From positions 1-6,436 of the forward strand of contig JAGUYV010000027.1 in assembly GCA_020061125.1 (NCBI GenBank): 6,436 nucleotides of DNA, written 5' to 3'. A program made the translations under genes and the position numbers. Positions 2,281-4,995 of this stretch are shown here, piece after piece. The notes under the pieces are model-generated. The model made no database searches. It saw only the letters and a list, made by a program, of their open reading frames with translations, and was not told where the DNA came from. Source of the stretch: a bacterium. GTDB lineage: Bacteria > UBP15 > UBA6099 > DSWB01. The first letter of the stretch is position 1. Each line of letters opens with the position of its first letter.

Positions 2281-2309
2281 AACAAAAGCCCCGGCCGCTG
2301 GGACCGGGG
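2281..2309 (-). terminator. Intrinsic terminator reading leftward
   Basis: On the minus strand CCCCGG (2309-2304) pairs with CCGGGG (2294-2289) across a 9-nt loop. After one C it is followed by TTTTGTT and further Ts (2287-2279). On the plus strand the hairpin is preceded by A residues and not followed by Ts, so it works only leftward. No gene lies directly to its right, which implies a short non-coding or leader transcript. Confidence 0.6.
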
Positions 2310-2421
2310 TTGCGTGTGCAAAAGGAAGTTAAGTTTTGGGCGCCCGTCAGCAGGAGACGTAACAGGTAACGGGCAGTCCGAATTTCTGCCGAACGCTCAC
2401 CTCCCTCAAGCCTTTTTGATT
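2281..2421 (-). ncRNA. Putative leader or small RNA with alternative hairpins and a 17-codon Cys-containing ORF
   Basis: Inferred transcript of about 140 nt, from a weak promoter (-10 TATATT, complement of 2428-2433) to the leftward terminator. Two hairpins share bases and cannot coexist: GGCAG/CTGCC (2372-2376 with 2386-2390) and GCCCGT/ACGGGC (2342-2347 with 2369-2374). On this strand a GTG at 2400-2398 opens a 17-codon frame, MSVRQKFGLPVTCYVSC, ending in TGA at 2349-2347. Two Cys codons lie in the second hairpin's loop region. A strong Shine-Dalgarno-like GGGAGGTGA overlaps that GTG itself, so normal initiation there is doubtful. The order of short ORF, competing hairpins and terminator resembles an attenuator, but no operon follows directly. 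The next gene on this strand is the RelA/SpoT-like gene ~355 nt further. No Rfam family is recognised; a stand-alone sRNA is equally possible. Confidence 0.35.
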
Positions 2422-2427
2422 GCCACT

Positions 2428-2456
2428 AATATAACCATTGTCCCGGTTTCAGACAG
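2428..2456 (-). promoter_or_regulatory. Weak, possibly activator-dependent promoter
   Basis: TATATT (complement of 2428-2433) sits 17 bp downstream of a poor -35, CTGTCT (complement of 2451-2456, 3 of 6 matches to TTGACA). Transcription would start near 2421. The weak -35 together with upstream Crp/Fnr-like palindromes centred roughly 50 and 73 bp before that start suggests activator dependence. This is inference. Confidence 0.35.
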
Positions 2457-2463
2457 TTTTGTA

Positions 2464-2479
2464 TGTGACCATGGTCACA
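2464..2479. promoter_or_regulatory. Perfect Crp/Fnr-family operator TGTGA-N6-TCACA
   Basis: TGTGACCATGGTCACA is a perfect 16-bp palindrome matching the half-site spacing and sequence known for Crp-type regulators. Related proteins such as HcpR in sulfate reducers use similar sites, so the exact regulator cannot be named. It lies about 50 bp upstream of the inferred leftward start. Confidence 0.65.
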
Positions 2480-2486
2480 AATGGCA

Positions 2487-2502
2487 AGTGATCAGAATCA
2501 CA
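2487..2502. promoter_or_regulatory. Second Crp/Fnr-family-like site
   Basis: AGTGATCAGAATCACA differs from TGTGA-N6-TCACA at only the first base. Its centre is 23 bp from that of the perfect palindrome, about two helical turns, so two dimers could bind on nearly the same face. A tandem pair is much less likely by chance than one site. Confidence 0.5.
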
Positions 2503-2780: not shown

Positions 2781-2898
2781 TCTATTGTCCTTTATAATAC
2801 TCAATAGTAATTTATAATTGGTGATAAATGCGAAATAATGCAAAATTTGCCATTGTTGGTAAAAATGTTAAAAAGTGGAAAAAACTTTTGAATAGCAG

Positions 2899-2929
2899 TT
2901 GACAACAACCCCATGGAAGGTGGTATACT
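2899..2929 (+). promoter_or_regulatory. Sigma-70-type promoter of the upstream small RNA
   Basis: A perfect -35 TTGACA (2899-2904) and an extended -10 TGG-TATACT (-10 hexamer 2924-2929) are separated by 19 bp, slightly long. The DNA upstream (2790-2895) is very A+T-rich, as in UP-element-assisted promoters. The predicted start near 2936 falls exactly at the first hairpin of the putative RNA. Confidence 0.6.
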
Positions 2930-2935
2930 TGCATA

Positions 2936-3067
2936 TAGTTGCGAGGGCAACTTGCGTTTTTTGACTTTGCAGAAACGTAAACCGGCGCCCTTACGCGTAG
3001 GTTTAGTTTTTCTGTCCCAAAACTGTCACCAGGGGAACATCCTCCTCGGTCGTTCCCCCCTTTTTTT
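2936..3067 (+). ncRNA. Putative structured small RNA (~130 nt) with CCUCCUC in its terminator loop
   Basis: A stretch with its own promoter and terminator and no credible ORF. Three hairpins are visible. The first is AGTTGC-GAGG-GCAACT (2937-2952) at the 5' end. The second is a longer imperfect stem pairing CAGAAA...TAAACC (2970-2983) with GGTTTA...TTCTG (3000-3014). The third is the terminator hairpin. A single-stranded linker (about 3015-3031) lies before the terminator. The terminator loop reads ATCCTCCTCGGTC, and exposed CCUCC motifs are known from small RNAs in several phyla that pair with Shine-Dalgarno sequences. That role is inference here. It does not look like 6S, SRP or tmRNA. It lies just upstream of the transketolase operon but ends before that operon's own promoter, so it is probably a separate unit and not a riboswitch. 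Confidence 0.5.
3032..3067 (+). terminator. Strong intrinsic terminator
   Basis: GGGGAAC (3032-3038) pairs perfectly with GTTCCCC (3052-3058) around a 13-nt loop. Two C residues and seven consecutive Ts (3061-3067) follow. It ends the putative small RNA and separates it from the promoter at 3130. Confidence 0.8.
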
Positions 3068-3129
3068 GCCCAAAAACGATTGCCGAAAATATGCCGCATG
3101 CAAAGCCGCCATGAACTTTGGGGATCGGC

Positions 3130-4063: not shown

Positions 4064-4995
4064 TGGCGGACAAACAGGCGACCCGCGACGCGTACGGCAT
4101 CGCCCTGCAGCGGATCGGAAACCAGAGGGACGACATCGTGGTGCTGGATGCGGATCTGTCCGGCTCCACTCGAAGCAAGAAGTTCGGGGCCGAGCACCCG
4201 GACAAATTTTTCAATGCGGGCATCGCCGAACAGAACATGATCGGCCTGGCCGCGGGCTTCGCATCCACGGGCAAGACCGTGTTCGCGAGCACCTTTTCCA
4301 TGTTCATCACGGGCCGGGTGTACGACCAGATCCGGCAGAACCTGGCGCGGCCGCGCGCCAAAGTGCGCGTCGTGGGCAGCCACGGCGGCATCACTGTGGG
4401 CGAGGACGGCCCGTCGCACCAGGCGTGCGAGGATGTGGGCCTCATGCGCCTGCTGCCCAACATGCAGGTGTGGGTTCCCGCGGACGGGCCGGAGACCGAG
4501 CGCATGGTCGAGGCCAGCCTGGACATTGACGGGCCGGTCTTCATCCGCACGGGCCGCGCCAAGTGCGCCATCATCCACGACGAAAACTACAAATTCATTC
4601 CCGGCAAAGGGGAAATCGTGCGTGACGGAGCGGACCTCACATTTATCGCCATGGGCATCATGGTGGGCGCGTGCCTGGAGGCCGCGGAAACCCTGGCCGC
4701 CGAGGGCGTGAATGCGCGCGTGGTGAACATGGCGTCGGTCAAACCCATGGATGCCGATCTTGTGGTTCGTTGCGCAAAAGAGACGGGCCGCATCATCACG
4801 GCCGAGGAGCACTCGATCGTGGGCGGCCTGGGCGGCGCGGTCGCGGAAATCTGCGGCGAACAATGCCCGGTTCCGGTCATGCGGCTCGGCATGCGCGACG
4901 AGTTCGGCAGAACCGGCCCGGCCGGCGAGCTGCTCGAATATTTCCACCTAACCGCTGCGGACATGGCGCAGGCCGCACGCGGCTTCTTGAAATAA
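4063..4995 (+). CDS. Transketolase, C-terminal (Pyr/C-domain) subunit
   Basis: A 310-aa protein matching the second half of transketolase. Conserved features are DADLSGST (29-36), GIAEQNM (53-59, with E56 as the Glu that activates the ThDP aminopyrimidine) and [15 protein letters not shown] (106-120), which helps form the substrate site. The C-terminal domain contains [15 protein letters not shown]. It pairs with the preceding subunit so that ThDP sits at the interface between a Pyr and a PP domain. 1-Deoxyxylulose-5-phosphate synthase and pyruvate dehydrogenase E1-beta share the fold, but the two-gene arrangement, the lengths and the adjacent transaldolase favour transketolase. The start is ATG in a TGATG overlap, and GGGAGG about 8 nt upstream, inside the preceding gene, is the ribosome site. 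Confidence 0.95.

Follow-up and report, generated by a model that had tools for sequence, protein, structure and literature searches.

A candidate CRP-activated small RNA downstream of tandem CRP-type sites in an uncultured bacterium of a little-studied phylum

Among the small RNAs of bacteria that are controlled by CRP, CyaR is activated by CRP-cAMP (PMC9002310, PMC8672173), whereas Spot 42, AzuCR and VcdRP are CRP-repressed, and AzuCR and VcdRP also encode small proteins (PMC8672173). Given that CRP-activated and CRP-repressed RNAs are both named in PMC8672173, CRP-controlled RNAs are a known kind, of which the interval analyzed here, in a 6,436-nt stretch of DNA (hereinafter, the window), would be a new instance. 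The interval resembles CyaR in that it is a short intergenic unit with an upstream CRP-type site, an intrinsic terminator and pyrimidine-rich candidate pairing segments; it differs from this enterobacterial RNA in the presence of tandem dyads, in coming from another phylum, and in resembling none of the known families, either by sequence or in Rfam. The likeness to Spot 42, AzuCR and VcdRP would consist in the small size of the RNAs, the direct control by CRP and, in the window too, a candidate small open reading frame (ORF). However, CRP represses those RNAs, whereas the layout in the window suggests activation, and VcdRP is longer than 300 nt and contains a conserved 29-residue ORF, compared to 140-150 nt and a weak 17-20-codon ORF for the window candidate.

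The perfect palindrome and the one-mismatch copy that had been noticed in the preliminary description are present, with their centers 23 bp, or approximately two helical turns, apart. The proximal CRP-type dyad, TGTGACCATGGTCACA, at positions 2464-2479, matches TGTGA-N6-TCACA perfectly, and the distal one, AGTGATCAGAATCACA, read on the plus strand at 2487-2502, has a single mismatch; neither dyad is assigned to a strand. With up to two mismatches allowed, the window contains six matches to the pattern, compared to an expectation of 1.69, and all 200 shuffled sequences stayed below six. Across all 17 perfect sites of the host genome, there is only one case of a one-mismatch neighbor at a distance of 16-40 bp, namely the window pair, compared to an expectation of 0.03 that was computed on 106 kb of host-genome DNA surrounding the perfect sites. 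The window palindromes are not a product of chance, and the two dyads are very likely to be real sites.

The host genome (G000) is 79% complete, and the phylum comparison set comprised seven genomes. The 17 perfect TGTGA-N6-TCACA sites in the host genome contrast with three matches to the reversed pattern, and many of them are located upstream of predicted genes, including those for a response regulator and for large surface proteins as well as the gene that opens a nuo-like operon. Downstream of a CRP-type site, the segment L135:3682-4149 encodes, one after the other, two short predicted proteins that resemble each other (~41-57 residues, MKVIYALWGCGARF... and MENTILALLGFGKIL...-like). The only full HTH_Crp_2 protein in the host genome is a CRP homolog encoded at L143:3454-4185. 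The recognition helix of this protein, TTRETLTRAL, keeps the R-E-T-x-x-R signature of the CRP type and is identical in the G002 and G003 orthologs, which show 57-60% identity overall; residues R180 and E181 have been tied to the TGTGA-type motif (PMC1274295). The best NCBIfam match of the host protein is the CRP model PRK11753, below the curated cut-off of that model, and its matches among the solved structures include E. coli CAP and further members of the CRP/FNR family. The protein also carries a cAMP-pocket-like motif, FGELALLDGEPRSA, which suggests that it binds cAMP.

The sites recognized by HcpR of Desulfovibrio read wTGTGAnnnnnnTCACAw (PMC1274295) and are indistinguishable from the window dyads, so that the DNA site alone cannot separate CRP from HcpR. 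The regulators differ, however: the host protein is closest to CRP and contains the cAMP-pocket-like motif, for which reasons HcpR was ranked below CRP as a candidate, and no hcp gene was recognized beside the sites inspected. The sequence of the regulator thus favors CRP over HcpR. Of the Crp/Fnr-type (Crp/HcpR) control originally proposed, the assignment of the window site to the CRP/FNR family is well supported by the excess of perfect sites, the CRP homolog and the recurrence of the 23-bp layout, whereas the HcpR option is less favored.

This recurrence became apparent when we looked for pairs of GTGA-N6-TCAC dyads separated by 3-22 bp, with the reversed pattern as the control. A distance of exactly 23 bp between the centers was found in the window as well as in G001, G002, G003 and G005; the host genome contains, in addition, a 24-bp pair on contig C436, and G001 contains pairs with wider spacing. 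No tandem dyads were detected with the reversed control. In three genomes of the phylum, G000, G002 and G003, the pair is located directly behind the crp ortholog and ahead of a FecR-like gene (L143:4197-4236, L151:2222-2260 and L152:2182-2220), with 23-bp spacing in G002 and G003 and 24-bp spacing in G000. In the crp-fecR promoter of G000, a TAAAAT hexamer lies 29.5 bp from the center of the proximal dyad, which is the class II distance. The CRP regulon of this phylum, comprising the CRP homolog, the 17 perfect sites and the recurrent tandem dyads, is the firmer result of the present analysis.

In the window, the minus-strand hexamer GACAAT (2442-2437), likewise separated by 29.5 bp from the center of the proximal dyad, is a candidate -10 element with class II spacing; with this element, the proximal dyad falls at -41.5 and transcription would start at ~2430. 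The alternative minus-strand hexamer TATATT (2433-2428), 9 bp beyond GACAAT, is the better -10 sequence, and would shift the start to ~2421 and the proximal dyad to ~-50, so a start at ~2430 is tentative. Thus, the weak -10 of the preliminary description exists, but in the form of two candidates. The predicted promoter has a poor -10 and lacks a -35 element; this absence, together with the class II position of the dyad, suggests activation by a CRP-family protein rather than repression, unlike the case of the CRP-repressed RNAs. On the plus strand, there is nothing resembling a -10 element at the class II offset from the dyads.

The leftward terminator that had been placed ~140 nt downstream is confirmed. 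On the minus strand, positions 2309-2280 encompass an intrinsic terminator, CCCCGGTCCCAGCGGCCGGGG followed by CTTTTGTTT, in which a stem of 8 pairs (2309-2289, -15 kcal/mol) precedes CTTTTGTTTT. From the dyads, the -10 candidates and this terminator, a minus-strand transcript of 140-150 nt, spanning 2280-2430, can be predicted. Between positions 2310 and 3220, we found no coding minus-strand gene that could use the terminator. By a simple scan, the window contains 11 terminator-like sites compared to 8.2 in shuffled sequences, that is, such matches are not rare as a class; under a stricter score, ~3.3% of the intergenic point/direction pairs in the host genome have a terminator of the same orientation 40-200 nt downstream. 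Given that such a terminator is found by chance at ~3% of intergenic positions and that the dyads are symmetric and hence directionless by themselves, the dyads could be real while the nearby terminator is coincidental, in which case they would act rightwards or represent a relic of regulator binding. We consider this explanation quite improbable because a -10 hexamer with class II spacing is missing from the plus strand and the next rightward gene is more than 700 bp away, beyond a miniature inverted-repeat transposable element (MITE) and a separate promoter-terminator pair.

Two other perfect sites in the host genome are also followed by a terminator before any predicted gene, one in L134 (site at 2193, terminator at 2320-2346), where both lie between convergent genes, and the other in L133 (site at 4365, terminator at 4433-4462). 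Nevertheless, that the host encodes a whole family of short RNAs driven by CRP is not a convincing proposition, with three cases against ~1.1 expected (34 directions x 3.3%), and the L134 and L133 candidates show no obvious common sequence with the window RNA.

In agreement with the earlier claim that no gene of normal size separates the promoter from the terminator, the best ORF in this region has only 17-20 codons and a coding score of about zero. As is characteristic of bacterial intergenic sRNAs, the interval combines its own intrinsic terminator with the absence of an ordinary ORF. The weak ORF, ...VSVRQKFGLPVTCYVSC, occupies positions 2347-2409 on the minus strand and has 17 codons if it starts with GTG at 2400 or 20 codons if it starts with TTG at 2409. 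The interval could accordingly specify a small mRNA, or a CRP-controlled dual-function RNA comparable to VcdRP and AzuCR, for the 17-20-residue peptide VSVRQKFGLPVTCYVSC, a reading that we regard as rather improbable. The ORF is located inside the predicted transcript, behind a purine-rich segment, GAGGGAGGTGA, and its frame scores 2.0 bits compared to -6.5 and -0.4 bits for two alternative frames; furthermore, CRP-controlled dual-function RNAs are known (PMC8672173), and short protein genes follow another CRP-type site of the host (L135). However, the Shine-Dalgarno-like 8-mer GGAGGTGA (2397-2404, minus strand) has no start codon at a normal distance and overlaps the GTG start of the peptide ORF, which makes the spacing wrong for translation. 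The coding score is negligible, and no homolog of the peptide was identified in the seven phylum genomes, the best match being 56% identical over 18 residues (E 1.3).

The fold of the whole interval is no better than those of shuffled sequences (z -0.3 to -0.7), so that the terminator hairpin alone stands out. Within this fold, two minus-strand hairpins are predicted, the first at 2376-2394 and the second at 2341-2375, with GUCUCCUGC in the loop of the latter; the pyrimidine-rich segment ACUUCCUUUU (2320-2329, minus strand) is a candidate pairing segment. A role as a CsrA sponge was rejected given that the interval RNA contains only two GGA motifs.

Our preferred reading, to which we assign an even chance, is that the interval encodes a CRP-activated, free-standing sRNA of 140-150 nt that works like CyaR. 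An sRNA is a plausible product of the interval, and we infer the following sequence of events. A CRP-family activator would occupy both dyads, 23 bp apart, and, from the proximal one at approximately -41.5 (class II), recruit RNA polymerase to a promoter in which the -35 is missing and the -10 is poor. The resulting transcript of 140-150 nt would start near 2430, end at the terminator at 2309-2280 and escape translation into a normal protein. By analogy with CyaR, it would then act in trans by base pairing for as long as the activator is on, the pyrimidine-rich GUCUCCUGC loop and ACUUCCUUUU pairing with the ribosome-binding sites of target mRNAs. More tentatively, and with a clearly lower probability, the product could be a CRP-regulated RNA unrelated to CyaR, Spot 42 or VcdRP, expressed from a promoter with a phased 23-bp tandem-dyad layout that is reused at several loci in the phylum, and possibly with a built-in peptide. 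If the interval does encode a CRP-dependent sRNA, this would be a case outside the gamma-proteobacteria, in a little-studied phylum, and would suggest that the wiring of sRNAs to CRP arose more than once.

Searches for relatives of the interval yielded only short chance matches. The alignment in related genomes that had been proposed as a check detected no DNA homolog in 60 relatives, the seven phylum genomes, plasmids or phages, a weak test inasmuch as the relatives compared belong to other families. Likewise, conservation of sequence or structure, another hallmark of intergenic sRNAs, was not observed among these relatives, none of which is closer than another family. The adjoining gene gives the same picture: the second half of the transketolase shows at most ~55% identity to any protein in the named genome collection, with the best relatives mostly from Clostridia and archaea, and for the first half, the identity to relatives from the same phylum is 40-45%. 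Because there are no close relatives among the compared genomes, the missing conservation of the interval is weak as a test. No Rfam family reaches its gathering score for the interval; the best sub-threshold match, to anti-hemB (E 0.037), was discounted because it rests mainly on the terminator hairpin. The CyaR model does not match the interval even at E 5. Hfq was not found in the 79%-complete host genome and is present in four relatives.

Another explanation involves the DNA to the left of the terminator: the interval would be either a 5' leader, subject to attenuation, of a gene on that side, or a promoter that the now adjacent low-GC island (~748-2210) separated from the gene it once drove. 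The next leftward gene (834-1925), coding for a RelA/SpoT-domain protein, reads the same way and begins 355 nt beyond the terminator; left of ~2210, the GC content drops from ~0.55 to 0.30, which indicates that the neighborhood was altered; and elsewhere in the phylum, CRP-type tandem sites drive ordinary, fecR-like genes. We nonetheless find this explanation unlikely. The RelA/SpoT gene is foreign in composition and probably has its own promoter, there is no known leader or riboswitch in Rfam for the interval, and no clear antiterminator is predicted to compete with the terminator, which is strong and simple.

The low-GC island itself (~0.30 compared to 0.55-0.67 in the surrounding DNA) merits a comment. 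The protein encoded on the minus strand at 834-1925 contains the RelA/SpoT domain (Pfam PF04607) and also matches the PADLOC candidate defense family PDC-S33 (E 2e-19); it may be a toxin or a small alarmone synthetase that was gained by horizontal transfer. To the right of the dyads, a 128-bp MITE-like element (2578-2705) with inverted ends GGGCCTGTTGAAAAA/TTTTTCAACAGCCC is flanked by a 5-bp target duplication, AAAGT, at 2573-2577 and 2706-2710. The host genome contains 43 matches to this element; those in G001 are partial and weaker.

A second RNA candidate, or a leader of the transketolase gene, is located on the plus strand at 2898-3068, in the gap that separates the dyads from the transketolase gene. 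The promoter of this unit consists of TTGACA-N19-TATACT with a TG before the -10 (extended -10), and the predicted RNA of ~130 nt (2938-3067) ends with GGGGAAC...GTTCCCCCCTTTTTTT, a strong terminator. No Rfam family matches it at the gathering score, and no homolog was detected in the seven phylum genomes. This RNA folds better than shuffled sequences (z -3.1) and is arguably a stronger candidate for a structured RNA than the leftward interval.
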